From positions 62,001 to 126,000 of the forward strand of contig NZ_BMNZ01000002.1 in assembly GCF_014646815.1 (NCBI RefSeq): a stretch of 64,000 nucleotides of DNA, in the 5' to 3' direction. A model generated the notes under the pieces. That model was not told the origin of the DNA, ran no database searches, and was given only the letters and a program-made list of their open reading frames with translations. The position numbers were made by a program, and so were the translations under genes. This stretch comes from Terrabacter tumescens. Lineage in GTDB: Bacteria > Actinomycetota > Actinomycetes > Actinomycetales > Dermatophilaceae. This document shows positions 8,600 through 20,744 of the stretch, piece after piece (positions within the stretch are counted from its first letter, which is position 1; each line of letters opens with the position of its first letter).

Positions 8600-8655
8600 C
8601 CGGGTGGGGGCACACGGCATACCTGCTCGGGAATCCCGGTGAGTCGCGCGCGACG

Positions 8656-9798
8656 ATGCGCGATCATGGGTTCGTGCCCCACCACCACCATTCGTTCGAC
8701 CCGCTCGCGTCGCTCCGCGGCGCCGACGAGCCATCGCTCGACGTCTTCGTCTGGGGCACCGTCTTCCTCGACATGATCTTCGCGGGGCTGCCGAGCGCGC
8801 CCAAGCCGGGCACCGAGGTGTGGGCCGAGGGGCTCGCGTCGTGCCCGGGCGGCATCGCCAACCTCGCCGTCGCGACCCGCCGACTCGGGCTGCGCACGGG
8901 TCTCGCGGCGGCGTTCAGCGACGACGACTACGGCGACTTCTGCTGGCGCACGCTCGAGGAGCAGGAGGGCATCGACCTCGCCCGCAGCCGCCGGTTCGCC
9001 GACTGGCACAGCCCGGTCACGGTCTCGATGTCGGTCGACCGCGACCGCAGCATGGTCTCGCACGGCCACCCCTCGCCCGTGCCGGCAGCCGAGCTCATCG
9101 GGACTCCGCCGCGCTCGCGCGCGGTCATGGTGGACCTGGGTGAGGACGAGGTCTGGGGCGCGACCGGGCCGACGTGGGTCGACCGGGCCCGTGACGCCGG
9201 CGCGCTCGTCTTCGCCGACGTCGGCTGGGACCCCAAGGAGCAGTGGTCGCCGCACGTGCTCGAGCGGCTCGACCGGTGCGACGTCTTCATGCCCAACGCC
9301 GTCGAGGCCATGGCCTACACCGGCACCGGCTCGCCCGTCGAGGCCGTCTACGCGCTTGCCGACCGCGTGCCCGTCGCCATCGTCACCAACGGCGCCGACG
9401 GCGCGCTCGGCATCGACGCCCGCACCGGCGAGGAGGCGCGCGTCCCGTCGCTGCGCGTCCAGGAGGTCGACCCGACCGGGGCCGGCGACGTCTTCGGCGC
9501 GGCCCTGCTCGTCGGCACCCTCGCGGAGTGGCCGCTGGAGCAGCGGATGACCTTCGCCAGCCTCTGCGCCGGGCTCGCGCTGCAGCAGTACGGCGGCTCG
9601 CTCGCCGCTCCCGGCTGGGGCGACCTCGCCGACTGGTGGACGGCGCTCGTCTCGGACCGCAGCGCGGACGCCTACCACCGCTCGCTCCGGCGCCGGTTCG
9701 GCTTCCTCGACGACATCGTGCCGCGCGTGCCCGTCCTCGCCTGCCGCCGCGCGACCGCGACCATCGCCAGGCGCGCCGACGTGCAGGACCTCGACTGA
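8656..9798 (+). CDS. PfkB-family carbohydrate kinase
   Basis: A 380-residue ribokinase/PfkB-type kinase. It has an early glycine-rich substrate region (CPGGIANLAVATRRLGL) and the C-terminal signature DPTGAGDVFGAALLVG, which supplies the anion hole and catalytic Asp. The sugar is not identifiable. It is divergent from the GH4 gene, with paired repeats between, so joint control is likely. The N-terminus contains a natural His run (HHHH), and a GTG at 8674 is an alternative start. The C-terminal 35 residues extend beyond the usual kinase fold. Confidence 0.88.
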   Translation: MRDHGFVPHHHHSFDPLASLRGADEPSLDVFVWGTVFLDMIFAGLPSAPKPGTEVWAEGLASCPGGIANLAVATRRLGLRTGLAAAFSDDDYGDFCWRTLEEQEGIDLARSRRFADWHSPVTVSMSVDRDRSMVSHGHPSPVPAAELIGTPPRSRAVMVDLGEDEVWGATGPTWVDRARDAGALVFADVGWDPKEQWSPHVLERLDRCDVFMPNAVEAMAYTGTGSPVEAVYALADRVPVAIVTNGADGALGIDARTGEEARVPSLRVQEVDPTGAGDVFGAALLVGTLAEWPLEQRMTFASLCAGLALQQYGGSLAAPGWGDLADWWTALVSDRSADAYHRSLRRRFGFLDDIVPRVPVLACRRATATIARRADVQDLD

Positions 9799-9819
9799 CC
9801 CCGGCCGCGGCACGGGTTC

Positions 9820-10347
9820 TCAGGCCTGGCGCCTGCTGACCTCCCTGACGTCGCGGGGAGCGGAGACAACCCCGGAGGGCTGTCGCGTGAGGGCGAGCCC
9901 GACGCCCAGCAGCAGCCCCCACACCAGGAACAGGGGATCCCACAGCAGGACGTGCCCGGTCAGCGCCGTCCGGGAGGCGGCATCCGCAGGGCCCTGCACG
10001 ACGCCCAGCAGGGCCAGGCTCCCGACGACGACGTTTGCCGCGCCGTAGAGCACGAGGACCGTGGCCCCGACCCAGCTCAGGCCTCGCCAGAGGCGAGCTC
10101 GTGGCAGGCGTCCTCGAGTGGCGAGCAGCGGCACGATGCCGCCGGCCAGCTTGACGGCGAAGATGCCGACCAGCAGCACGCCGACGAGAACGGGGCTCTC
10201 GGCCCGCCATGCCGGCGCCCACGTGCCCAGCGAGTCCATGCCGAGCGTGCCGCCGACAGCCCAGTAGAGGCTGGGCACCGCGTGCAGGAAGGCCACTCCC
10301 GCCGCCGCAAGGAGGAGCCGCTCACCGGTCGTGTCGGGAATGTCCAC
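9820..10347 (-). CDS. DUF3995 membrane protein
   Basis: A 175-residue integral membrane protein with four hydrophobic helices. The N-terminal pattern FLHAVPSLYWAVGGTLGMDSLG is characteristic of DUF3995 proteins, whose function is unknown. The start is GTG at 10347. It is convergent with the kinase gene, and there is no operon partner. Confidence 0.75.
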   Translation of the reverse strand: MDIPDTTGERLLLAAAGVAFLHAVPSLYWAVGGTLGMDSLGTWAPAWRAESPVLVGVLLVGIFAVKLAGGIVPLLATRGRLPRARLWRGLSWVGATVLVLYGAANVVVGSLALLGVVQGPADAASRTALTGHVLLWDPLFLVWGLLLGVGLALTRQPSGVVSAPRDVREVSRRQA

Positions 10348-10426
10348 ACCTCGACGCTAGACGACGCGCGTCCGAGGGAGGGGGTCGGCGGCGGTGTCGT
10401 CCGGGGCGGGCGGGCACGATAGGGGC

Positions 10427-10792
10427 ATGACCGAGCTGCCGGAGGACGTCCGTGACCTCGTCGCCCTCGACCTGCGGGCCGCCCAGGTGCAGGACTGGTC
10501 GATCGCCGGCGACTCCTTCACGTGGACGCTGCTCACCGGGGACCCCGACCGGGGCCACGAGCTCGCGACCGTGACCTATGTCGGCGCGGTCGTGCTCCAC
10601 ACCAACCGCCGTGACCTCGACCGGGCCGTCGCTGCCGCCGCGGAGGTCGCGCGCGCCGAGGTCGTGCCCACCGGGGAGGGCGGCTTCGAGCACCGGGTCG
10701 TGCTCGCGCCCGACTACCCTCTCGTCGTGCGCTTCTGGAGCGTGGAGGTTCGTCGTATGCCGGCACCCGACCACCTGCGTCGCGTGCGCTGA
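10427..10792 (+). CDS. Hypothetical protein
   Basis: A 121-residue soluble protein with codon use like its neighbours. ATG at 10427 is preceded by AGGGGC. Alternating strand/helix text (FTWTLLTGDPD, ATVTYVGAVVLHTN) suggests a small alpha/beta fold. I recognise no family. It lies upstream of the cupin gene in the same direction, with 66 bp between. Confidence 0.6.
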   Translation: MTELPEDVRDLVALDLRAAQVQDWSIAGDSFTWTLLTGDPDRGHELATVTYVGAVVLHTNRRDLDRAVAAAAEVARAEVVPTGEGGFEHRVVLAPDYPLVVRFWSVEVRRMPAPDHLRRVR

Positions 10793-10858
10793 GCGCGGAG
10801 CCGGGTCCACGGCGCCAGAAGTCTGTCCCGCCGCTCGCGCGAGTGCCATGGTGGAGGC

Positions 10859-11191
10859 ATGGAGAAGTCGTCGTTGACCGCGCTCGCCCGCGAGCTGCTC
10901 GAGCACGCCACCCACGCCTCGAACGGTCGCAGTGCCGACACCGTCTACGGCGGCCACGAGCACGTGCTGCGCCAGACGGTCGTCGCGCTCGCAGCCGGAC
11001 AGGTCCTCGCCGAGCACGAGAACCCGGGCGAGGCCACGGTCCAGGTGATGCACGGGCGCGTGCGGATCAGCGCGGGCGAGCTCTCGTGGGAGGGCGCCCC
11101 GGGGGACCTGCTCGTCATGCCGCAGGCGCGCCACTCGCTCGAGGCGCTCGAGGACTCAGCCATCCTGCTGACCGTCGCCAAGCTGCCCTGA
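10859..11191 (+). CDS. Cupin-fold protein
   Basis: A 110-residue single-domain cupin. The pattern VALAAGQVLAEHENPGEATVQVMHGRVRI followed by APGDLLVMPQARHSLEALEDS covers both cupin motifs, although the first motif has one His and several Glu instead of the usual HxH. Cupins of this size may bind a small molecule or detoxify; no specific role is visible. The heptamer GGCATAC follows its stop directly (11203). Confidence 0.75.
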   Translation: MEKSSLTALARELLEHATHASNGRSADTVYGGHEHVLRQTVVALAAGQVLAEHENPGEATVQVMHGRVRISAGELSWEGAPGDLLVMPQARHSLEALEDSAILLTVAKLP

Positions 11192-11279
11192 CCGGGCCAC
11201 ACGGCATACGTCCTCTGCTCCGAGGACGGGAGTGCGGTGGATCTCCGCCACCAGGCGCCGGCAATCCACCGCGCCGGCG

Positions 11280-11738
11280 TCATGGCCGTGCGAGGCTGCG
11301 GACGAGCGTCCTGCCGTCGCCGAAGAACGGCAGCAGCATGGCGCCGTGCGCGAGGTAGCACCAGCACCACGCCGCCGGCACGCCCAGGGCCCAGAGCGCC
11401 ACGCCGACGAGGACGCACGCCCCCGGGCCCGCCAAGGCCACTGCAGCTGCACGGCTCGGCGTCATCTCGCCGACCGGCACGACGGATACCCGGAGCAGCG
11501 TGCGCTCGACGGCGATGTGCGTCACCCCCGGCGCCCCGCGCAGCGCGACGACGTGGGCGCCCTCGTGCAGCACGAAAGAGCCCACCACGCCGGGACCCGC
11601 GAGCAGGAACAGCCCCCACGACAGCTCGAGCGGCACCCCGTCGCCGGACCGCACGGCATAGGTCAGGGAGGCGGCCACGAGAACGCCGAGGAAGGCGAGC
11701 AGCGGCCACACCTGACCGACCACCGCCCGGGGGACCAC
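11280..11738 (-). CDS. M50-like membrane metallopeptidase of a peptide cassette
   Basis: A 152-residue membrane protein with about four hydrophobic helices. SFVLHEGAHVVAL near residue 58 carries HEGAH, an HExxH-type zinc motif inside a membrane segment, and LLPFFGDGRTL near the C-terminus resembles the second aspartate motif of site-2 proteases. It is the last gene of a minus-strand run with an ABC exporter and two small genes, so it may cut or resist a small peptide. The start is a GTG at 11738 without a clear ribosome site. Confidence 0.65.
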   Translation of the reverse strand: MVPRAVVGQVWPLLAFLGVLVAASLTYAVRSGDGVPLELSWGLFLLAGPGVVGSFVLHEGAHVVALRGAPGVTHIAVERTLLRVSVVPVGEMTPSRAAAVALAGPGACVLVGVALWALGVPAAWCWCYLAHGAMLLPFFGDGRTLVRSLARP

Positions 11739-11775
11739 CCACCACGACAGCTCGTGCCGCGCATGGAGGCGTGCC

Positions 11776-12096
11776 TCAGCTATGGGACCGCTCCGCGATC
11801 AGCTCGGCGCGGTACTGCTTGAGCGCGGCGAACGCGAGCTGGACCAGCACCATGAGCACCGCGAAGCCGAGGAAGACGAACACCAGCGGAACGGGGTTCG
11901 CGAGACCCATCTCGGCCCCGGTCACGCCCGGCCGGACCTCCTTGGTCTCGAAGAAGACCGAGCCGAAGAGCCCGAGGCGGCGCACCGACTCCTCACCGGT
12001 CGACAGCATGAGTGAGAGCAGCGTGGCCGCGGCGCTCACCAAGGTCAGCAGGGCGGCGCCGACCACCGTGTTGACGACCAACAGGGACTTCTTCAT
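11776..12096 (-). CDS. Small two-helix membrane protein
   Basis: A 106-residue protein. The ATG at 12096 has GAGGAG seven bases upstream. The N-terminus MKKSLLVVNTVVGAALL begins a transmembrane helix or signal, and a second helix lies at about residues 65-88. No family is recognised. Its first 104 bp overlap the end of the ABC permease frame, which is unusually long for an operon overlap. It may be an accessory or immunity component of the exporter; this is context only. Confidence 0.65.
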   Translation of the reverse strand: MKKSLLVVNTVVGAALLTLVSAAATLLSLMLSTGEESVRRLGLFGSVFFETKEVRPGVTGAEMGLANPVPLVFVFLGFAVLMVLVQLAFAALKQYRAELIAERSHS

Positions 12097-13510
12097 GACG
12101 TCTCCTCGACTCATCGATGCGAATGCCTTGAACGCTGTACCAGGACAGGAGGGCCAGGCTGGCGACGGCGACGACGCCGAGGACTGCCGGTGGGGCCTGC
12201 AGGATGCCGAGGGAGACACCGACCAGCGCCATCACTGCGGCCGTGACCGAGAGGCCGACGAAGACCGAGAAGGGGTTGTCGTTCTCGGCCGGGAAGATGA
12301 CCCCGATGCCGATCGCGACGACGGCACCGGCAGCCGAACCCACCAGCGCCAGAGGCACGCCCGACAGCTGCTCGGGATCGATCAGCCAGAGCAGTCCCGT
12401 CGCCGGCACCCCGCCCGCGACCACGAGGCCGACGGGTCCGCGGACGAGCCTCCCGTAGACGACCCACGCCGAGGACCGCGAGGCGACGAGCGCGCGGAGC
12501 GGTCCCGTCGCCGCGAACTGGTAGAGCCCGCCGATCGAGAGCAGGGACAGGGCCCACACCGGGTTAGCCAGACCCGAGAGGGCCAGCGCCGCGTAGAGCG
12601 CGGCCGCCACGGCCACGCCGAGCCAGGTCTGGGTGCTCCGCACGAGGCACAGGTCATAGGGGTCGAGGACCGCGCGCAGCCGACTCCCGGTGGGGACGTT
12701 GACGAACCGCGAGTGGCGCACGTGCTCGTTCGGGGTCAGCACGACGGCCAGGGCCACCAGCACGAGCAGCGCGGCAACGGCACAGAGCAGGGCCAGCGGC
12801 GAGCCGATCTCGCCGGACAGCCACGAGAGTGCGGTCACCCAGACGAAGGAGTCCCGGCCCGCGAGGTAGTTGTCCGACACGACTGCCGTGAGGTGCGAGA
12901 GCTGACCGGCATAGGTGAGAAGCAGGGCGAAGACGGCCAGGATCAGCAGGACGTTGCGGATGCGGCGCAGCCCGAGAGCCAGCGCGAGCCGGCCGAGCGC
13001 GAGGTACGCGACGGTCATGACGGCATACGTCAGCATCATCGGCAGCACGACGGACTCGAGCAGCCGGGGCACCACGGCCGGTCCCTGGAGCAGCAAGGCG
13101 GCACCGATGAGCGAGACGAAGCCGGCCGCCGCGACGACCGAGGCCATGACGGCCTCGTAGACGAGGAAGGCCAGGGTGCGTTCCCGGTTCGTCAGTGGCA
13201 GGTGGAAGCTGAGGTCGAGCAGGGCATCCGCGTTGAGGAAGAGCACCTTGACGAGCAGGAACGCCATCTGCGCCCAGAGCACCACCGAGACCGTCGACAG
13301 GTCGAAGAGCAGGCCCCACTGGTTCTCGTCGGCGACCATCGGGCGGAAGAACGCATACCCTCCGGCGACGCCCGCGAGCAGCAGCACGCCGAGGGTCACG
13401 AGGGCCAGCACACGCACCGTGGCCGAGCGGAGCACCCCGAGCCGCAGCACCTTCCGGCTGAAGAAGCGCAGCAGCATGCCGGCCAGCACGAACGAGTGGC
13501 CGAGCCTCAC
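11993..13510 (-). CDS. ABC exporter permease subunit (ABC-2-like)
   Basis: A 505-residue membrane protein with roughly 12 hydrophobic segments, of the large actinobacterial exporter permease type. The GTG start at 13510 overlaps the ATPase stop (GTGA), indicating translational coupling. The last 35 residues (from about HEEVPVGRQH) are polar and read through the start of the next gene in another frame. A single-base shift would end the protein at a TGA just before that gene, so either the overlap is real or there is a frameshift here. The likely role is export of a small peptide or lipid encoded in the same cassette. Confidence 0.8.
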   Translation of the reverse strand: MRLGHSFVLAGMLLRFFSRKVLRLGVLRSATVRVLALVTLGVLLLAGVAGGYAFFRPMVADENQWGLLFDLSTVSVVLWAQMAFLLVKVLFLNADALLDLSFHLPLTNRERTLAFLVYEAVMASVVAAAGFVSLIGAALLLQGPAVVPRLLESVVLPMMLTYAVMTVAYLALGRLALALGLRRIRNVLLILAVFALLLTYAGQLSHLTAVVSDNYLAGRDSFVWVTALSWLSGEIGSPLALLCAVAALLVLVALAVVLTPNEHVRHSRFVNVPTGSRLRAVLDPYDLCLVRSTQTWLGVAVAAALYAALALSGLANPVWALSLLSIGGLYQFAATGPLRALVASRSSAWVVYGRLVRGPVGLVVAGGVPATGLLWLIDPEQLSGVPLALVGSAAGAVVAIGIGVIFPAENDNPFSVFVGLSVTAAVMALVGVSLGILQAPPAVLGVVAVASLALLSWYSVQGIRIDESRRRHEEVPVGRQHGGRRRPADLGERRGHAALTHAVDR

Positions 13511-14229
13511 GACGCCCTCGAGTCCGAGTCGAGCCGGTCGAAGACGAGGTCGGCGAGGGAGCCGTGCTCCGCCACGAGGTCGGCCGTGGGCCCCGCCGCG
13601 ACGACCTCACCGAGGTCGAGGAAGACGATGCGGTCGGCCAGGCGCTCGAGGAGGGTGAAGTCGTGGGTGCACAGCAGGATGGCACGGCCCTCGGCGCGCA
13701 GCGCCCGGAGCTCACGCTCGGCGAGGTGCAGGGCCTCGACGTCGATCCCGTTGAGGGTCTCGTCGATGACGGTGAGGGAGCGCCGGAGCACGAGCGCCGA
13801 GACGAGCTGGGTCTTCTTGCGCATGCCGTGCGAGTAGTCCTCGATGAGGTCGTCGTAGCGCCCCTCCATCGAGAACCGGGCGAAGAGGGCCCGCGCCGCG
13901 TCGTCGTCGACGCGCACGCCGTAGAGCTTCGCGAGCGTCTGGACGTACTCGCGGCCCGTGAGGAACTGGGGCAGGTAGTCGTTGCTCGCGAGGTAGGCCG
14001 CCTCGGCCCGGGCGGCAGTGCTCGTATGCGGGTGGCCCCCCAGGGTGACCGTCCCCGACTGGCTGCGGAGCAGGTCGAGGACGTTCTTGATGAGGGTGGA
14101 CTTGCCGGACCCGTTGGGCCCGATGAGGCCGACGATCGTGCCCGCCTCGACCTGGAGGCTCACGTCGTCGAGCACGGGCGTCACGCCGTCGTAGGAGTAC
14201 GACAGGCCTGCCACGTCTAGGATGGTCAT
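13507..14229 (-). CDS. ABC transporter ATP-binding protein
   Basis: A 240-residue ATPase with Walker A LIGPNGSGKST, a Q-loop region, signature DYSHGMRKKTQLVSAL, Walker B LTVIDETLNGID and an H-loop (LLCTHD). The signature (YSHGM) is the exporter type found with ABC-2 permeases. The start ATG at 14229 gives MTILDVAGLSYSYDG; longer readings have no better start. It is separated from the 88-residue gene upstream by a strong hairpin and overlaps the permease by 4 bp. Confidence 0.92.
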   Translation of the reverse strand: MTILDVAGLSYSYDGVTPVLDDVSLQVEAGTIVGLIGPNGSGKSTLIKNVLDLLRSQSGTVTLGGHPHTSTAARAEAAYLASNDYLPQFLTGREYVQTLAKLYGVRVDDDAARALFARFSMEGRYDDLIEDYSHGMRKKTQLVSALVLRRSLTVIDETLNGIDVEALHLAERELRALRAEGRAILLCTHDFTLLERLADRIVFLDLGEVVAAGPTADLVAEHGSLADLVFDRLDSDSRAS

Positions 14230-14313
14230 GCGTGTGGTTCCTTCCTCGCCCTCCGAGCGAACCTGCGGCCGACCCTGCACCGTTGCTGCGGTCGGGCCGG
14301 CCACAGGTTCTAG

Positions 14314-14346
14314 GACGTCGGAGATCGTTGGCCGATCTCCGACGTC
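14314..14346 (-). terminator. Perfect 14-bp hairpin after the 88-residue gene
   Basis: GACGTCGGAGATCG (14314-14327) and its exact complement (14333-14346) flank a 5-base loop. It sits at the stop codon of the 88-residue gene and ahead of the exporter genes. It fits a terminator, a partial terminator or an mRNA-stabilising end that would let the small genes be expressed above the exporter. No T tract follows on either strand. Confidence 0.65.
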
Positions 14347-14611
14347 ACACGCACTCGAAGTAGACGCTGAGTCCGAAGTTGCGGAACGACCAGCGGCCGG
14401 TGAAGCGCTTGCCCTGCTTGACGACGCACCAGATCGCCATGCCGGTGATGAGGACGGCGCCGAGCGCCAGGATGACCGCGACGAACACGAGGAACCACGC
14501 GTCGTACCGCACGAGCGCGTCGTCGAACTTGGCGCGGGCCGCGGTCATGGCACGGGCCGACGACTCGTAGGTGCGGGTCGAGAGCGTGTCGTTGACGTGG
14601 GTCAGGGACAT
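14345..14611 (-). CDS. 88-residue single-helix membrane protein of a peptide cassette
   Basis: A small protein with a good ribosome site (GGAAGGAAG, eight bases before ATG 14611). Residues 1-37 are polar with many Ala/Arg/Thr, residues 38-64 form one transmembrane helix (WFLVFVAVILALGAVLITGM), and the tail KRFTGRWSFRNFGLSVYFEC is basic and aromatic. It is unlike any family I know. It lies between a 43-codon peptide gene and an ABC exporter, with hairpins on both sides. It could be a peptide precursor, an immunity protein or a membrane partner. Confidence 0.65.
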   Translation of the reverse strand: MSLTHVNDTLSTRTYESSARAMTAARAKFDDALVRYDAWFLVFVAVILALGAVLITGMAIWCVVKQGKRFTGRWSFRNFGLSVYFECV

Positions 14612-14708
14612 GGGTGCACTTCCTTCCACTGCTGTTCTGTGGCCGGCCACCGGGAGTCCGGGACCGTGTCGCGGTGCTGCGTGGTGCGACATGACCGACC
14701 GAACCAGC

Positions 14709-14772
14709 AGGGGCCGCGGTCGGACAATGGGGAGTCGGCCCCTGCGCCTGTCCCTTTCGTGCCGCGGCCCCT
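14709..14772 (-). terminator. Hairpin after the 43-codon gene
   Basis: AGGGGCCGCGG (14709-14719) pairs perfectly with CCGCGGCCCCT (14762-14772). The stem begins 10 bp after the stop of the 43-codon gene and encloses further short complementary segments. It is probably a terminator or attenuator between the peptide gene and the rest of the minus-strand run. Confidence 0.6.
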
Positions 14773-14782
14773 ACCTGCCAGC

Positions 14783-14914
14783 TCAGCGCCAGCAGTCGAT
14801 GCACGGAACGGCGGCCCGCGCCGTCGCGATGCCCTCCGAGCCCTCCGCGCGCTCCGCGGCGGACGGGAGCGAGATGCCGACGACGACGGCGACGGTGAGA
14901 ACGATCTTGCGCAT
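14783..14914 (-). CDS. Candidate secreted small peptide (43 codons) ending in a CxxC motif
   Basis: An open frame starts at ATG 14914, with AAGGGGAAGG eight bases before it, and ends at TGA 14783. The protein has a short signal-like N-terminus (MRKIVLTVAVVVGISLPSAA), an acidic then Ala-rich middle, and the C-terminus VPCIDCWR with two cysteines three residues apart. Cleavage after LPSAA or later at TARAA would release a peptide of about 10-23 residues. It is followed by a hairpin and then by membrane and exporter genes, and is divergent from a LuxR-type regulator. No homologue is known to me; coding status rests on the start site, context and signal-like text. Confidence 0.6.
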   Translation of the reverse strand: MRKIVLTVAVVVGISLPSAAERAEGSEGIATARAAVPCIDCWR

Positions 14915-15116
14915 GGTGGAGCCTTCCCCTTGACCGGTTGCGCACCCGGGACCCCGGGCGCACCGTCACCCTCGCAGAGCGCCGCCGCGGCGACAGGAGG
15001 CATTTGGTGCCATGGCATGAACTAGCCCCGTCGGACCCGTGACGCCTAGGGTGAGGGCGGGGACGAGGGCCCGCGAGGCCCCGTCCCTCGTGTGACGGCC
15101 AGGCGCAGGGGGACTC
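14915..15116. promoter_or_regulatory. Divergent promoter region with a 10-bp palindrome
   Basis: 202 bp lie between the 43-codon peptide gene and the divergent regulator. TGCCATGGCA at 15008-15017 is a perfect palindrome in a less GC-rich patch and is a candidate operator for the regulator encoded next door. No confident -10/-35 pair was seen. Confidence 0.4.
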
Positions 15117-16157
15117 GTGGACGACAGGGTGTGGGGCATCGACGCAACCGGCGAGACCGGGCTCGCCCCGACCTCGCTGGTGTCACCGTTGGAGCTGGCC
15201 GCGTACGAGCACCTCGCGTTCACGCCCGACTGGACGCCCGAGACGCTCGCCGGCGCACTCGGCGACTGCGCGGTCGACGAGGTCCCGCCGCTGCTCGAGC
15301 GACTGCGGGCGCACGGCCTCGTGCGGCCGTCCCAGCAGGACGCCGACCGCATCGTCGCCGTCTCGCCCGTCGTCGGCCTGGGGCGCCTCGCGGGCGACGC
15401 CGAGCAGGGGCTGCTCGAGCAGAGCCAGTACGTGCAGCGGCTGCGGCTGCTCACCAACTCCTTGAGCGAGCGCTACGCCCAGCTGCGGGCGGACCGCGCG
15501 CAGGACTCCGAGTCCGAGGTCGTCTCCGGGCGCGATGCCGCCGTCGTGCGGGTGGGCGAGCTCCTCCGCGACTGCACCGAGTCCGTCGACTCCGTCGTCG
15601 CCGCGGCACCGACGCCCCAGGCCCTCGAGCAGGCCCGGGTCGGTGACGCCGGGCTGCTCGCCCGCGGCGTGCGGGTGCGGGCGATCTACCAGGAGGGCCA
15701 TCCGCGCCAGTCACGCGCCCTGCAGGAGCACCTGCGCTGGCTCTCGGAGCACGGCGCCCACGTCCGCCTGGCCGGCATCACACCGGTCCGGCTCATGGTC
15801 TTCGACGGCACGGTCGCGGCCGTCGCGCTCGACCCGGGCCAGCCCGGATCCGGAGCGCTGGTGCTGCGCAGCCCGGGCGCCGTCCACGCCATGACGGCCC
15901 TCTTCGACCTGCTGTGGGACTCCGCGCGACCGGCCGGCACGGCGCCGACGGCGGGCGCGCAGGAACAGCCGCTCACCGAGCTCGAGACAGCCGTCGTCCG
16001 GCTGCTGGCCCGGGGCAACAAGGACGAGGCGATCAGCCGCCGCACCGGGGTCTCGGTGCGGTCGGTCCGCCGCATCATCGCCGGCCTCATGGACACCATG
16101 AACGCCGCCAGCCGCTTCGAGCTGGGCCTGCGCTGCCGGGACCGCGGCCTCGTCTGA
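15117..16157 (+). CDS. LuxR/TrmB-like transcriptional regulator of the peptide cassette
   Basis: A 346-residue regulator starting at GTG 15117 after CAGGGGGA. The N-terminal 75 residues resemble a TrmB-like winged helix (LSPLE-type start, PPLLERLRAHGLVRPS). The middle (about 130-270) is a PLD-like/TrmB-C ligand domain (RVRAIYQEGHPRQSR, RLMVFDGTVAAVAL). The C-terminal 65 residues are a LuxR helix-turn-helix (LTELETAVVRLLARG, ISRRTGVSVRSVRRIIAGLM). It is divergent from the peptide/exporter genes, so it is the obvious candidate controller, possibly sensing the peptide. Confidence 0.85.
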   Translation: MDDRVWGIDATGETGLAPTSLVSPLELAAYEHLAFTPDWTPETLAGALGDCAVDEVPPLLERLRAHGLVRPSQQDADRIVAVSPVVGLGRLAGDAEQGLLEQSQYVQRLRLLTNSLSERYAQLRADRAQDSESEVVSGRDAAVVRVGELLRDCTESVDSVVAAAPTPQALEQARVGDAGLLARGVRVRAIYQEGHPRQSRALQEHLRWLSEHGAHVRLAGITPVRLMVFDGTVAAVALDPGQPGSGALVLRSPGAVHAMTALFDLLWDSARPAGTAPTAGAQEQPLTELETAVVRLLARGNKDEAISRRTGVSVRSVRRIIAGLMDTMNAASRFELGLRCRDRGLV

Positions 16158-16190
16158 GACGCGGCCACACGGCATACGCCCTCGGTGGGC

Positions 16191-17042
16191 TCAGTCGCCG
16201 GCGATGCCGGTGCGCTCGACCCCCTCGACGATCCAGCGCTGGAGGAAGAGGAACATCAGCAGCAGCGGCACGATCGCGACGAGCGCGGCCATGAACAGCT
16301 GGCTGACCTGCACCGACTGCGCCGTGAGGAAGGTCGACAGCGCGATCTGCACCGTCCACGACTCCTGGTCGCGGCCGATGACGAGCGGCCAGAGGAAGGC
16401 GTTCCACGAGCCGATGAAGGTGATCGTGCCGATGGCCGCGACGAAGCCCATCGAGTTCGGCACGACGATCTTCCAGAACGTGCCCCAGTAGCCGAGGCCG
16501 TCGATGAAGGCTGCCTCCTCGATCTCCTTGGGGAAGCCGAGGAAGAACTGCCGGAAGAGGAACGTCGCGAGCGCTTGGAAGAGGCCCGGGATGATGAGGC
16601 CGCGCAGCGTCGAGATCCAGCCGAGGGTCGAGACGAGCACGAAGCTCGGCACGAACGTCACGGCCGCGGGGATGAGCAACGTGGCGGTGATCGTATAGAA
16701 GACGGCGTTGGACCAGCGGTAGGGGATGCGCGCGAGGCCGTAGCCGGCGAGGCCCGAGATGACGAGCACCCCGACCGTCTGGGTGACGGCGATGAGACCC
16801 GAGTTGAGCAGGCTGCGCGCCATCGGGATCGCCGGGTTGTCGAAGAGGCCGGTGAGGTTGGAGGTCTCCCAGACCGGCGGCAGCCAGTGGAAGTCCGGTG
16901 AGCCGAGGTCCTGCTCGCGCATGAACGCGCTGCGGATGAGCAGGTAGAAGGGGATGAGGAAGAGGAGCGCCGCCACGACGAGGGCGCTGTAGCGGGCCCA
17001 CCCCGTGACGCGGGACTGGCGCTTGCTGCGCACGATGGCCAT
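16191..17042 (-). CDS. Carbohydrate ABC transporter permease (MalG type)
   Basis: A 283-residue inner-membrane permease with six hydrophobic segments and the cytoplasmic EAA loop EEAAFIDGLGYWGTFWKIVVP, which docks the ATPase. It is the last gene of the operon binding protein - permease - permease. The start ATG at 17042 directly abuts the TAG of the preceding gene. No ATPase gene is in the operon, so a shared MsiK/UgpC-type ATPase elsewhere is expected. Substrate unknown. Confidence 0.92.
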   Translation of the reverse strand: MAIVRSKRQSRVTGWARYSALVVAALLFLIPFYLLIRSAFMREQDLGSPDFHWLPPVWETSNLTGLFDNPAIPMARSLLNSGLIAVTQTVGVLVISGLAGYGLARIPYRWSNAVFYTITATLLIPAAVTFVPSFVLVSTLGWISTLRGLIIPGLFQALATFLFRQFFLGFPKEIEEAAFIDGLGYWGTFWKIVVPNSMGFVAAIGTITFIGSWNAFLWPLVIGRDQESWTVQIALSTFLTAQSVQVSQLFMAALVAIVPLLLMFLFLQRWIVEGVERTGIAGD

Positions 17043-18050
17043 CTACTCGCCCCTGTCGCCGAGTCGGAGGATGCGGCCCTGCACCACCGCGACGATCGCG
17101 ATGATGAGGGTGAGGATGACGGCGCCGGCGGACCCGTGGCCGAAGTCCTGACCCGACCCGAGCGCCGTGTAGTAGAGGTAGACGAGCGGCGGGCGCGCGT
17201 AGGGCGGGTAGGTGCCGAACGTCGACAGGATGTTGTAGAACTCGTCGAACGCCTGGAACGCGTTGATGAGCAGGAGCAGCAGCACCGCCGTCGACGTCGC
17301 GCGCAGCTGCGGCAGGGTGATGTGGCGGAAGACCTTCCACCCCTCGGCGCCGTCGATCGCGGCCGCCTCGTAGAGCGTCGGGCTGATCCGCTGGATGCCG
17401 GCGAGGAACAGGATCATGTAGAAGCCGACCTGCAGCCACAGGCGCGCCGTGACGATGACGAGCCAGTACCACGGCGGGTCGGCGAGGCTCAGCCACGGGA
17501 TCGAGTCGACGCCGAACCAGCCGAGCACCCCGTTGGCCAGGCCCGAGCGGATGCCGCTGAAGATCGACATCTTCCAGATGAGCGACGCCACGACGTAGGA
17601 GCAGGCGGTCGGGAGGAAGAAGACCGACCGGAAGAAGCTCTGCATGACCCGGGTGCGCGCGACGAGCAGCGCTGCGCCGAGCGAGATGACGAACGTCGTC
17701 GGCACGATGAAGACGGCGAAGGCGAGGAACGTGACGAGGCTGCTGCGGAACGCCGGGTCGCTCAGCATGTCGAGGTAGTTGCCGACTCCGACGAACTTCG
17801 TCGGCGTCACCGTGTTGTAGGACTCGAAGAACGACAGGTAGATCGACCAGGCGATCGGGATGTAGACGAAGACGATGAGCCCGATGACGAACGGCCCGAC
17901 GAAGACCCAGAACCACAGGTTGCGGTCCTGGCGCCCGCGCAGGCGCCGACCGAGCGACGGCCTCCCGTCCGTGGGAGGCGGCGTCGTCCGGTCGGTCGCC
18001 GTCCGCTGCGCGGCGTGGTCGTATGCCGCCGGGTCGGCCTGCGCTGTCAG
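17043..18050 (-). CDS. Carbohydrate ABC transporter permease (MalF type), apparent CTG start
   Basis: The frame encodes six membrane segments and the EAA loop EAAAIDGAEGWKVFRHITLP. The first transmembrane helix (FWVFVGPFVIGLIVFVYIPI) lies upstream of the first in-frame ATG/GTG/TTG, which is GTG 17810. A start there would remove that helix. The best upstream candidate is CTG at 18050-18048, whose bases overlap the TGA of the binding-protein gene (CTGA), the geometry of translational coupling. The protein would then be 335 residues with a Pro/Thr-rich N-terminus. A sequencing error creating the missing start is the alternative. Confidence 0.85.
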   Translation of the reverse strand: MTAQADPAAYDHAAQRTATDRTTPPPTDGRPSLGRRLRGRQDRNLWFWVFVGPFVIGLIVFVYIPIAWSIYLSFFESYNTVTPTKFVGVGNYLDMLSDPAFRSSLVTFLAFAVFIVPTTFVISLGAALLVARTRVMQSFFRSVFFLPTACSYVVASLIWKMSIFSGIRSGLANGVLGWFGVDSIPWLSLADPPWYWLVIVTARLWLQVGFYMILFLAGIQRISPTLYEAAAIDGAEGWKVFRHITLPQLRATSTAVLLLLLINAFQAFDEFYNILSTFGTYPPYARPPLVYLYYTALGSGQDFGHGSAGAVILTLIIAIVAVVQGRILRLGDRGE

Positions 18051-19372
18051 GCGAGGACCCGCTTCAGCTCGGGATCGGCCACGGCCTTGACCTTGGCGAT
18101 CTCGCCGGCGGGGTCGGCGCCCTCCTTGACGATGCGGTTCATCGCGTCACCGAAAGCCGTGGCGCACTTGGGAGTCCACAGGATCGGGCTCTGCGCGTGG
18201 CCGACGTCGGTCGCGAGCTTGGCCGCGTCGGCGGCCTGCCCGCTCTTGAGCGTGGAGGCCTGGCTGATGAGGCTCGTGCGCGAGGGGATGTGGAAGCCGT
18301 AGGAGGTCGCGAAGTCGAGCTGGTCCTGGGTCTGGTCGATCCAGAGCCACTTGACGAACTTCTTGGCCGCCTCGACGTCCTTGCTCTTGGCGCTGACGCA
18401 CGAGCCGTAGGCACCGACGGGCACCGAGGCCTTGCCGCTGCTGTCGAGGGCCGGCCAGGGCAGCACGCCGAAGTCGTCGCCGAGGCCCTTCTTGATGTCG
18501 GGGAAGGTCCACAGGCCGGTGAACTGCATCGCCGTCAGCCCGGAGGTGAGCGCGGACGCGTCGAACCAGTCCTTGGGGGCGCCGAGGAGCAGCACCTTGG
18601 CGTCCCACATCTCGCGCAGCTTGCCGAGGGCGGTCGCCGCGCGCGGGTCGTCGAAGCCGAACTGGTTGTCCTTGGTGAGGTAGTCGAGCCCGGCCGACCA
18701 CAGCATCGGGCCGCCCATGAGGCCGGCGCCGCCGTCGTTGCCGAGGAAGAGGCCCTTGACGTTGCCCTGGGTCAGCTTCTTCGCCGCGGCGATGAGCTCG
18801 TCGATGGTCTGCGGCGGCTGGATGCCGGCCTTGTCGAGCATCGACTTGCGGTAGACGAGCAGCTGCATGTCGACGACCTGCGGCACGGCATACGTCTTGC
18901 CCTGGTAGGTCATCCGCTCGAGGATGCTCGGGTTGAAGTCGGACTTCGTGTCGCCGATGAGGTCGGTGAGGTCGACGACCTGGCCGCCCTTGATCATGTC
19001 GATGGTCGGGCCGTTGCCGTACTCGAAGACGTCGGGGCCGGCGTCGGTGAGCAGCGAGGCGGCCGTGGACTGGTCGTAGTCGCCGGGCTTCCAGCTGACC
19101 TTGACGGTGGCGTCCTTGTAGGCGGCGGCGTACTTCTCGACGGCCTGCTGCGTGCCGGCCTCGCCGTACTGGTGGTACCACTGGTTGAGCGTGACCCCGC
19201 TGCCGCCGCTGGCACCGCCGCCGGTCGCTGCCGGCTCGCGCCCGGTGTTGCTGCCGCAGGCGGCGAGCGCGCCCGTGACCGCCGCCGCCCCGCCGAGCGC
19301 GAAGAGCGAGCGCCGGGTGAGGTTGGCCCCCAGGGCCTGGCCGATCTCGCGGCCGATCTGCTTGTCAGACAT
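18047..19372 (-). CDS. Sugar ABC transporter substrate-binding lipoprotein
   Basis: A 441-residue family 1 extracellular solute-binding protein. The N-terminus has LTRRSLFALGG followed by a lipobox (ALAACG), so it is a lipoprotein possibly exported by Tat. The mature part has the two-lobe periplasmic-binding pattern (GGQVVDLTDLIG, PQVVDMQLLVYRKSML, AAKKFVKWLWI). It is the first gene of the importer operon; ATG 19372 is preceded by GGGGAACCT. Mono- or oligosaccharide uptake is expected; the ligand is unknown. Confidence 0.92.
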   Translation of the reverse strand: MSDKQIGREIGQALGANLTRRSLFALGGAAAVTGALAACGSNTGREPAATGGGASGGSGVTLNQWYHQYGEAGTQQAVEKYAAAYKDATVKVSWKPGDYDQSTAASLLTDAGPDVFEYGNGPTIDMIKGGQVVDLTDLIGDTKSDFNPSILERMTYQGKTYAVPQVVDMQLLVYRKSMLDKAGIQPPQTIDELIAAAKKLTQGNVKGLFLGNDGGAGLMGGPMLWSAGLDYLTKDNQFGFDDPRAATALGKLREMWDAKVLLLGAPKDWFDASALTSGLTAMQFTGLWTFPDIKKGLGDDFGVLPWPALDSSGKASVPVGAYGSCVSAKSKDVEAAKKFVKWLWIDQTQDQLDFATSYGFHIPSRTSLISQASTLKSGQAADAAKLATDVGHAQSPILWTPKCATAFGDAMNRIVKEGADPAGEIAKVKAVADPELKRVLA

Positions 19373-19521
19373 AGGTTCCCCTGCGTCCTTCCTGCCCGGG
19401 GTGCGGGCACCGTTGACGACGGCGGGCGTCCGGCCAGTCTGCTCGACCTCGCCCACCCTGCGATCGTATGCCCGCAACCTCCGGGTATGCCGGATGGCCC
19501 GCTCCGCGACGCCGGCGCGGT

Positions 19522-19998
19522 TCAGATGGTGGCCGGCGAGTTGAGCGGGTTGTCGCTCAGGGTCTCGGGTGCGGTCTGGAGCAGCTGCTCGACGAGCAGG
19601 AGGGTCTGCTCGTCCTCGAGGGTCATGCGCCGCCCGAAGTGGCCGCGGGCCAGGGCGACGCCGGCGCCGACGCGCAGGATGCTCGTTCGGACGTCGGCCC
19701 GGGTGTCGGCGTCCATGCGTTCGAGCAGCCGGGTCACGGAGAGCAGGCCCGAGACGACTGGACGGCCGTCGAGCTCGAACTCGTCGAAGAGCCAACGCCT
19801 TTCGGCTGCGGCGGTGCCGAGCAGGTCCCGGCCGGGGCCGGTGCTGCGCAGTGCCGCGTCGGTGACGGCGTCCCAGAACGCGCCACGCTCGTCGTCGTCG
19901 AAGCGGATGCGGCCGGCAAGCGCGCTCAGCACCCAGACCGGGGCGAGCCGGAGCGTGACCCACTCCTGCTCCGACCACTGCTCTCGCCACTGCGACAT
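19522..19998 (-). CDS. Hypothetical protein
   Basis: A 158-residue soluble, mainly helical protein starting at ATG 19998 (MSQWREQW), codirectional with the importer operon and 149 bp upstream of it. Text such as LAPVWVLSALAGRIRFDDDERGAFW suggests a small helical bundle. No family is recognised. It ends the native-looking region: the GGCATAC motif is absent from here to 28.69 kb. Confidence 0.65.
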   Translation of the reverse strand: MSQWREQWSEQEWVTLRLAPVWVLSALAGRIRFDDDERGAFWDAVTDAALRSTGPGRDLLGTAAAERRWLFDEFELDGRPVVSGLLSVTRLLERMDADTRADVRTSILRVGAGVALARGHFGRRMTLEDEQTLLLVEQLLQTAPETLSDNPLNSPATI

Positions 19999-20744
19999 GC
20001 CCGCGACACCGCCTCTCGTCCGCTGCCGGACCCCACCAGCGTACGACCGGTCCGGTCAGGCCGGTCCGGTCAGGCTCGCCCGGTCAGCGGCACTCGCGGG
20101 CGGCGACTACCGGGCGCAGCACGGCGTCGACCTCGGGGGTCGAACCAGCGGCGGAGGTAGTCGTCGGCGAGCACGTTGGCCAAGGACCCGAGCGCCATCG
20201 ACTGGTCGAGCCACGGGTGACGCCCAGCGTGCCGCCCGGTCCGCGTGCCGACGGCGTCGATGAAGCCTCGGGACCGTAGGGCGCCGAGGTCACGCTAGGT
20301 CTGGACGAGTTGTCGGCGGCGGCTCGGCCTTCGCCTCGGCCATGAGCGCCATCGCCGAGCGTGCGGCGTCAGGAAGACCGCGCGGTTGCGCTCACGCGGG
20401 TAGCCGTCGGTCTCCCCCGCGATGGGAGGCACCCCGAACGGAGTAACCCTCGGCCGGACAGGACGACGGGCTGAGTCCTCAGTGGCCGTAGCCCGTCTCC
20501 TGGAGCGCGTACTCGCGCTGCAGGGGCCACGGTCCATGCCTACGTCGACTCGGGGACCGGTGATCGTCAGCACCGCGGCCTCAATTATCGAGCCGGTCAA
20601 GGTCGGCGCGACGTTCCGGCCGCGCTAGTGCCGGGCCCGCCCACCTGTAGCCCATCCCGCCCAGATAGAGCTGGGATTCGGCGCCCAGAATTGCGCGTAC
20701 CGACAACGCTGTCTGAATCACAGGAGACGCGCGCCAAGAATGGT
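19999..20744. other. Gene-poor, apparently degenerate stretch at the island edge
   Basis: These 746 bp show no gene with convincing length and start. A minus-strand fragment at about 20110-20290 reads coherently (HPWLDQSMALGSLANVLADD, then DYLRRWFDP) and looks like a broken coding remnant with an in-frame stop upstream and no start. The rest shows nothing recognisable. It marks the left edge of an island with foreign composition. Confidence 0.5.

Follow-up and report, generated by a model that had tools for sequence, protein, structure and literature searches.

A 64,000-nucleotide stretch of the Terrabacter tumescens contig NZ_BMNZ01000002.1 (positions 62,001 to 126,000 of the forward strand), called the window below, carries a block of seven open reading frames (ORFs) between positions 11,280 and 16,157. 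All seven had been named in an earlier sequence-only reading, and all were found at exactly the coordinates given there. In the order of transcription, the minus strand encodes a 43-codon ORF followed by tmcA, tmcB, tmcC, tmcE and tmcP, and a regulator is encoded on the opposite strand (Table 1). We assign the block, with a probability of about 0.88, to a chromosomal TMcin biosynthetic cluster (tmcA-B-C-E-P) with a linked small-peptide/regulator pair. The placement on the chromosome is based on the 727-kb contig that carries the locus. In this strain, the gene set, the conserved residues, the fold prediction, the synteny and an empty site in sister genomes carry the assignment.

TMcins are a class of pore-forming bacteriocins published in 2025 (PMC12328743), and their biosynthesis was described in a 2026 preprint (PMC13252029). 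According to the accessible parts of both sources, TmcA is a one-helix precursor whose leader is taken off by the site-2-protease-like TmcP, the mature peptide contains a Cys25-Cys50 disulfide, TmcE is an escort protein with two helices and TmcBC is the exporter. Homologues had been reported in Bacillota and Actinomycetota, and the staphylococcal TMcin is the only member tested in these parts. Hence, the locus is a new member of a bacteriocin class named in 2025, in a phylum already reported for the class. The sequence-only reading had proposed an undescribed bacteriocin-like cassette with no named system behind it. The bacteriocin-like nature was borne out by the homology of TmcA and by the gene set, but the system already had a name (PMC12328743, PMC13252029, as far as accessible).

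Table 1. Features of the TMcin locus and its surroundings (window coordinates)
Feature	Position	Strand	Basis or detail
tmcP, site-2-protease-like leader peptidase homologue (HEGAH...PFFGDGR)	11280..11738	-	HExxH/P/D alignment, synteny
tmcE, two-helix escort protein homologue	11776..12096	-	synteny, alignment
tmcC, exporter permease, 505 amino acids	11993..13510	-	ORF list, homologues, synteny
tmcB, ATP-binding cassette (ABC) ATPase of the TMcin exporter	13507..14229	-	PF00005 E 2.3e-23, synteny
14-bp perfect stem-loop between tmcA and tmcB	14314..14346	-	arms 14314-14327 / 14333-14346
tmcA, TMcin precursor, 88 amino acids	14345..14611	-	alignment to mature TMcin-G1905, W/C/FTG/C conserved, model
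Leader (tmcA residues 1-37) and predicted mature core (residues 38-88)	core 14348-14500	-	alignment
43-codon small secreted peptide, tail CIDCWR, not the TMcin precursor	14783..14914	-	ORF, relatives beside regulator homologues
Transcriptional regulator, 346 codons, C-terminal LuxR-type helix-turn-helix (HTH)	15117..16157	+	transcribed divergently from the 43-codon ORF
4917-bp segment absent from sister genome G006	11273..16189		whole cluster, peptide and regulator; no mobility gene
Left copy of 26-nt direct repeat (88% identical), carries over-represented CACGGCATACG	11190..11215	+	repeat search
Right copy of 26-nt direct repeat, 4968 bp from the left copy	16158..16183	+	repeat search

From residue 38 onwards, the window TmcA is identical to mature TMcin-G1905 at 22 of 51 positions, with the cysteines in register: C62 and C87 fall on the positions of Cys25 and Cys50 of the published core. 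Tryptophans at core positions 2 and 24 flank the helix. We aligned 23 cores (22 from the window and other loci, plus G1905; a decayed copy in genome G023 was excluded). W2, F34, G36 and the final cysteine were present in 23 of 23 cores each, and W24 and C25 in 22 of 23 each. The common plan is [AG]-W-x(21)-[WY]-[CR]-x(7-8)-F-[TS]-G-x(13-14)-C, with the second tryptophan replaced by tyrosine once and the first cysteine by arginine once. In a script screen, a pattern of this type, which was drawn from the accepted loci themselves, matched 20 of 21 of them and 0 of 54 loci dropped as weak matches.

The AlphaFold input for TmcA was a two-row alignment (the window protein and one homologue). The model shows a helix at residues 38-66 and strands at 70-77 and 80-87, with a mean predicted local distance difference test score (pLDDT) of 67.5 and block values of 63-71 for the two-stranded sheet. 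The modelled helix starts exactly at residue 38. By analogy with the published member, the leader would be removed by TmcP at the A-W junction, and the helix would be kept in the mature product. Two other ideas about the tail were given up. An independent tail peptide, suggested by a 34-residue tail-only ORF in G023, was dropped since that copy is decayed: an intact precursor occurs in G834, of the same genus, and a transposase-like ORF lies in the G023 tmcC. Release of the tail by a cut within the helix gave way to the mode described for the published member, in which the helix is retained.

The agreement with the published description extends feature by feature to the remaining genes. In the accessible parts of both sources (PMC12328743, PMC13252029), TMcin-G1905, from plasmid pCT545 of Staphylococcus aureus G1905, shares with the window the one-helix precursor with leader, the two tryptophans flanking the helix, Cys25/Cys50 and the beta-hairpin, as well as an ABC ATPase, a permease, a two-helix escort protein and a membrane protease of the HExxH/PxxxDG type. 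The gene order differs, being A-B-C-E-P in the window while the S. aureus core operon runs from tmcB to tmcA (PMC13252029, accessible part). Regulation differs as well: the window encodes a 346-residue LuxR-type-HTH protein and a divergent CIDCWR peptide, whereas the staphylococcal locus has a bicistronic HTH operon. The exporter, which the sequence-only reading had placed in a new peptide system, thus belongs to a known and unrelated one.

A Pfam scan of the seven ORFs gave the ATPase as the sole clear match, and an NCBIfam scan of the same ORFs added nothing decisive. The 3' end of tmcC overlaps tmcE by 104 nt. The length of tmcC agrees with its homologues, as the alignment with that of G034 covers all 505 residues and the ORF in G834 is likewise 505 residues long. 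Scans of genome contigs with the permease as query and with a degenerate TmcA tail pattern gave no match.

TmcP had been read as a HEGAH-type membrane protease. The motif part of this stands, since HExxH and the distal proline and aspartate were found in 18 of 18 aligned family members. Site-2 proteases of the clan of DUF3267 (PF11667) and 3b4r have these residues in common with the window TmcP, and the strand pair that follows their HExxH helix also appears in its low-confidence model; with 152 residues, the window protein is short for this clan. The best informative PDB match in Foldseek was the M. jannaschii site-2 protease 3b4r (rank 2, E 0.58, non-significant alone). Among the homologues scanned, DUF3267 was hit only by the TmcP of G107 (E 0.0096, 16.7 bits against a cut-off of 27.1), and neither the window TmcP nor three other homologues scanned alongside gave a match. 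YydFGHIJ and Eep-type peptide systems also combine a membrane metalloprotease, an ABC exporter and a small peptide. The window block differs from them in its precursor and in having no radical SAM enzyme, lipoprotein or pheromone precursor. A literature search for an M50/bacteriocin system gave nothing useful.

Neither tmcD (DsbA-like) nor the bicistronic HTH operon was found among the ORFs of 11273-16189. The accessible part of the preprint reports tmcD as missing outside staphylococci (PMC13252029). VKOR is encoded elsewhere in the genome (E 5.7e-32), which suggests that the disulfides of the cluster may be made in trans.

The synteny comparison covered 23 loci, one of them the G024 region, which has no tmcA, with 5-18 kb of sequence per locus. 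With the window included, the order A-B-C-E-P in one direction was found 16 times. The other 15 cases are 14 cellular loci of the same taxonomic order (one decayed) and one contig of a viral collection (L005, L084, L006, L026, L027, L028, L029, L139, L140, L141, L142, L144, L145, L148 and L100). That the five-gene set recurs across other genera, other families and Bacillota, and that three sister genomes lack the segment as a block, is more than expected by chance. Other arrangements were B-C-E-P-A in the Staphylococcus epidermidis plasmid pHOB2 (L101) and A-E-P-redox genes-B-C in Roseburia (L103). In Paraclostridium bifermentans (L102), A and B were recognised by homology, followed by permease-like, protease-like and two-helix proteins according to annotation and sequence reading. 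The remaining loci were incomplete: in L143, tmcA is not followed by the other genes, L146 is truncated at the end of its contig, L147 has no recognised tmcE and a tmcP match within a long fused frame, L104 matched only A and B, and L138 contained no TMcin gene.

Several loci deserve separate mention. Two different TMcin clusters lie on separate contigs of genome G298 (L029 and L139). The locus L100 (IMGVR_UViG_2868695505_000001) is a complete cluster near one end of a 53-kb viral-collection contig. A decaying TMcin was found in G023 (L006:9535-13624), with a TmcA that has no helix and an opposite-strand transposase-like ORF that splits tmcC.

This decayed copy bears on the question of whether the window cluster, although a TMcin, is silent or decaying in this strain. 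A sigma-70 scan, which is weak for a high-GC genome, found no promoter-like site. Against this, the five window genes are all open and their lengths are about those of the homologues. We therefore consider a silent or decaying cluster unlikely.

A search with the 88-residue protein against 58 relatives matched three genomes, its own included. The TmcA tail matched 19 places in 17 of 396 genomes of the order at E <= 1. Six places with a same-family ATPase alongside were accepted and used as alignment seeds, and 13 of the 19 were dropped. Profile searches of single families gave 26 of 186 genomes at E <= 0.1 in the strain's own family (4 accepted and 22 dropped, among the latter G915, later recognised as a divergent relative), 4 of 189 at E <= 0.001 in the family of G298 (3 accepted, G1037 dropped), 9 of 213 in the family of G345 (8 accepted, G1266 dropped) and 1 of 13 in the family of G107. 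At the level of the phylum, 40 of 396 genomes matched at E <= 0.1, and only the strain's own genome was convincing (39 dropped). Public plasmids contained TmcA relatives in six records, all from Bacillota (S. epidermidis, three P. bifermentans, Roseburia and Peribacillus). A search of phages found no TmcA.

The 54 weak-match loci screened by script were dropped loci, 29 of them from the phylum search (its other matches had no locus). No TmcA-like tail was found in any of the 54. Four (L030, L061, L083 and L088) encode a TmcB-related ATPase with 24-40% identity. One of them, L061, is the cluster of G915 (L225:5298-8296, minus strand), which starts with two tandem TmcA-like peptides of 77 and 78 residues. 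These have no FTG, and their two C-terminal cysteines lie 23 residues apart (inclusive). A TmcB-like ATPase, a two-helix protein and a 492-residue permease-like protein follow, and tblastn gave no TmcP relative within 12.4 kb. This cluster is possibly a two-peptide variant of the TMcin class.

The patchy presence (4 of 186 family genomes accepted) and the plasmid relatives fit a bacteriocin. Moreover, the residues of the pore former (two tryptophans, two cysteines, FTG and the beta-hairpin) are kept. Both observations speak against a TMcin homologue that does another job, such as a membrane-active signal or protection from other TMcins. Such a use would go with the location on a large (727-kb) contig and with the regulator/peptide pair next to the cluster, but on balance we regard it as very unlikely.

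For the empty-site search, nine genomes of the genus (own included) were queried with window 8600-20100, followed by flank alignment. Window 10843-11272 is joined to 16190 onwards in G006 (1 base between) and to 16191 onwards in G008 (2 bases between), and in G003, window 10843-11206 is joined to 16191 (7 bases between). Accordingly, the difference is a segment of ~4.9 kb from tmcP to the regulator. Five of the eight other genomes showed no clean join, and tmcA was found in none of the eight. The join is flanked by a stem behind the upstream gene and by the stop codon of a convergent transporter-permease gene (PF00528). A neighbouring sugar-permease gene has its nine best plasmid matches in Streptomyces and other actinobacteria, which, like the base composition, points to an actinobacterial genome. 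Gain of the cluster in this strain is the simpler reading and is preferred over loss in the sisters.

A 26-nt direct repeat brackets the segment (Table 1). As its core word is common in the genome, the repeat is possibly incidental. Among the 9-mers that occur at least 12 times in the window, ACGGCATAC shows the strongest enrichment (22 occurrences against 0.32 expected), with copies at, for example, 11200, 16168, 18884, 40299, 41087, 46867, 49163, 58242 and 59027. It is also the most enriched 9-mer in 140 kb of the strain's own genome (42 against 0.65; 22 and 20 on the two strands). Among the sampled genomes, it was enriched in G006, G001 and G025, had two copies in G035 and was absent from G034, G024, G107 and G032. 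The word looks like a DNA-uptake-type signal. To our knowledge, no such signal has been described in actinobacteria, and a literature search for DNA uptake sequences in Actinobacteria gave nothing useful.

The stem-loop between tmcA and tmcB has a folding z of -5.8, and a second stem follows. Its first two bases fall in the tmcA stop codon. At the same place, 12 of 19 clusters tested reached z <= -2.9 with differing sequences; the folded pieces include the end of tmcA and, in short gaps, the first part of tmcB, whose start was an estimate in some clusters. The spot behind the structural gene of a bacteriocin is the usual site of a partial terminator, so an excess of tmcA transcript can be expected. 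The stem is probably a partial terminator or an RNA-stabilising stem that would raise the expression of tmcA over that of the exporter.

The 43-codon ORF had been taken to encode a peptide that is exported and/or sensed. By homology, the processed and exported product is the 88-residue protein instead. The small gene, though not the precursor, is probably real, as similar signal-peptide ORFs with a CIECW end occur in G024, divergent from a close regulator homologue, and in the TMcin locus of G034. GGGGAAGG stands a few bases before its ATG and, from sequence reading, it has its own Sec-like signal peptide. In an alternative model, the ABC exporter would carry this peptide and the membrane protease would cleave it, with the 88-residue protein as an accessory. 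The place of the small gene, ahead of all other minus-strand genes in the block, goes with this model. Its own signal does not, nor do the other stretches examined, in which the five genes have no such ORF with them. In G024, the same type of ORF occurs beside the regulator without the cluster. Furthermore, exporter and protease of the S. aureus homologue act on TmcA (PMC13252029, accessible part). We consider this model hardly credible.

The regulator had been described as LuxR/TrmB-like. A LuxR-type HTH was found just below the Pfam cut-off (GerE, 22.3 against 23.5 bits), but no TrmB model matched. Its closest homologues are in G034, beside the TMcin cluster of that genome, and in G024, beside a CIECW peptide. 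G024, in which no TMcin was found, has the closest homologue that adjoins no TMcin: it is 50% identical over residues 16-271 and divergent from a 38-codon ORF (MRKLTT...KVCIECW). G034 has a 40-codon ORF (MRKITV...KPCIECW) at a distance of 6.7 kb from its regulator homologue (51%) and of 7.9 kb from tmcP. The neighbours of this ORF are those of the G024 ORF: an aminotransferase-like and an ATPase-like gene lie to one side, and a DUF427-like gene lies to the other; the Pfam names were taken from the G024 copies, and the ATPase-like protein of G034 itself has no match. In G025, a 46-codon ORF ending in GGCPNC is divergent from a regulator homologue of 32% identity.

We read 41 regulator-homologue regions (42 were given, one without a match). 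Only the ORFs of the window, G024 and G025 and one in L160 passed the filters, the last with no cysteine tail, and the other 37 regions gave no ORF. A filter for signal peptide and CxxC tail, applied to 974,016 bases (overlaps included), gave four distinct places and one chance ORF. As the G034 place had been fetched by the 43-residue query and two others by the regulator, this counts as support and not as an unbiased test. The 43-residue sequence itself had no relative better than E 0.06 among 57 other genomes, and no relatives were found on plasmids. In viral contigs, the CIxCW-stop pattern occurred five times, in no case within an open frame that has a signal peptide. Members of the regulator family are widespread (32 of 58 genomes at E <= 1e-10), and only two tmcA loci, those of the window and of G034, have one nearby.

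Hence, conservation of the small ORF together with exporter and protease, as the sequence-only reading had expected, was not seen: in the stretches examined, no such ORF was found at other tmcA loci, and the nearest is that of G034, 6.7 kb beyond the regulator. The link between a small ORF and a divergent regulator fared better, as G024 (CIECW) and G025 (CPNC) show the same arrangement, but peptide and regulator are not general TMcin parts. Judged by gene neighbourhoods, peptide and regulator appear to be a separate pair that is carried here together with TMcin. Given the divergence and the joint presence, control of both the cluster and the 43-codon gene by the regulator is probable, and the peptide is perhaps its signal or sensor partner. 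That the MRK...CI(D/E)CW peptide and the divergent LuxR-HTH regulator form an undescribed peptide- or redox-sensing switch of this actinobacterial family, one that travels as a module and has been joined to TMcin here, is a doubtful reading. A literature search for TrmB or LuxR regulators with small secreted peptides gave nothing useful. The residual novelty of the locus is the CxxCW peptide with its regulator, the sole part that could not be named.

Several points weigh against the assignment of the whole block to TMcin. TmcB, TmcC, TmcE and TmcP are putative assignments, made through gene set, order, size, motifs and comparison with pHOB2 and not by alignment to the tested G1905 proteins. 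By itself, the window TmcP has no match among Pfam or NCBIfam models. Its AlphaFold prediction is of low confidence (pLDDT 57.6), and Foldseek of this prediction gave no match that reached E 0.001. No gene of the window cluster was identified as a self-immunity gene, and immunity lay outside the scope of the preprint (PMC13252029). After tmcA, 7 of the 19 clusters have no strong stem (z between -2.1 and 1.6). A regulator homologue was present at only 1 of 22 other tmcA loci (5-18 kb each), that of G034, and an ORF of the 43-codon type was near this one only. Finally, cleavage site, disulfide, export, pore formation and killing in this strain would follow the published member, from which we infer them.

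With the mode of action carried over from S. aureus G1905, TmcA would enter the membrane of the producer via its single helix, and Cys25 and Cys50 of the core would become disulfide-linked, an oxidation that the VKOR encoded elsewhere could drive. TmcE would bring TmcA to TmcP, which would cleave before Ala38 to give a product of 51 residues. TmcBC would then extract the product from the membrane and release it. In target Gram-positive cells, the product would oligomerise into a beta-barrel pore with the helices around it.

Relatives of the cluster on plasmids gave further observations. S. epidermidis 14.1.R1 carries a complete TMcin cluster on pHOB2 (NZ_CP018844.1, L101:728-3964). All five genes are present, and the TmcA core has W, WC, FTG and the final C as in the window. 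It differs from the window in its gene order, its location on a 9.3-kb mobilisable plasmid, a small HTH regulator and the TmcA tail AKCAK. No DsbA-like gene is among the 13 annotated features of pHOB2. The strain has an unexplained activity against Propionibacterium acnes, described as proteinaceous, heat-labile and vessel-adsorbing (PMC4770681, accessible part; PMC5347227), for which a type VII system was suggested (PMC5347227). TMcin could be the source of this activity.

On the P. bifermentans plasmid CP124688 (L102:10496-11389 and 11663-12073), a TmcP-like protease with an N-terminal PqqD domain (PF05402, E 1.2e-13) was found. We know of no earlier case of a fold of the type that recognises ribosomally synthesised and post-translationally modified peptides fused to an intramembrane protease. 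A thioredoxin/DsbA-like gene (PF13462, E 1e-11) is located in the same run, despite the limitation of tmcD to staphylococci in the preprint. Within the TMcin cluster of Roseburia (NZ_CP135163, L103:9158-10666), a protein combines two thioredoxin stretches with a DsbD-like membrane part that stays below the Pfam cut-off, again a thiol-redox partner outside staphylococci.

TMcin was presented by its discoverers as a class of antimicrobial peptides whose pores reach a stability known otherwise from protein toxins alone (PMC12328743, accessible part). The Terrabacter locus provides an intact high-GC TMcin with clean presence and absence among sister species. Its regulatory partner is a different one, and its peptide can be tested. 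Some actinobacterial loci composed of a membrane protease, an exporter and a small protein can now be named. If the switch reading were true, the CxxCW peptide secreted by the producer itself would be the cue for bacteriocin production.

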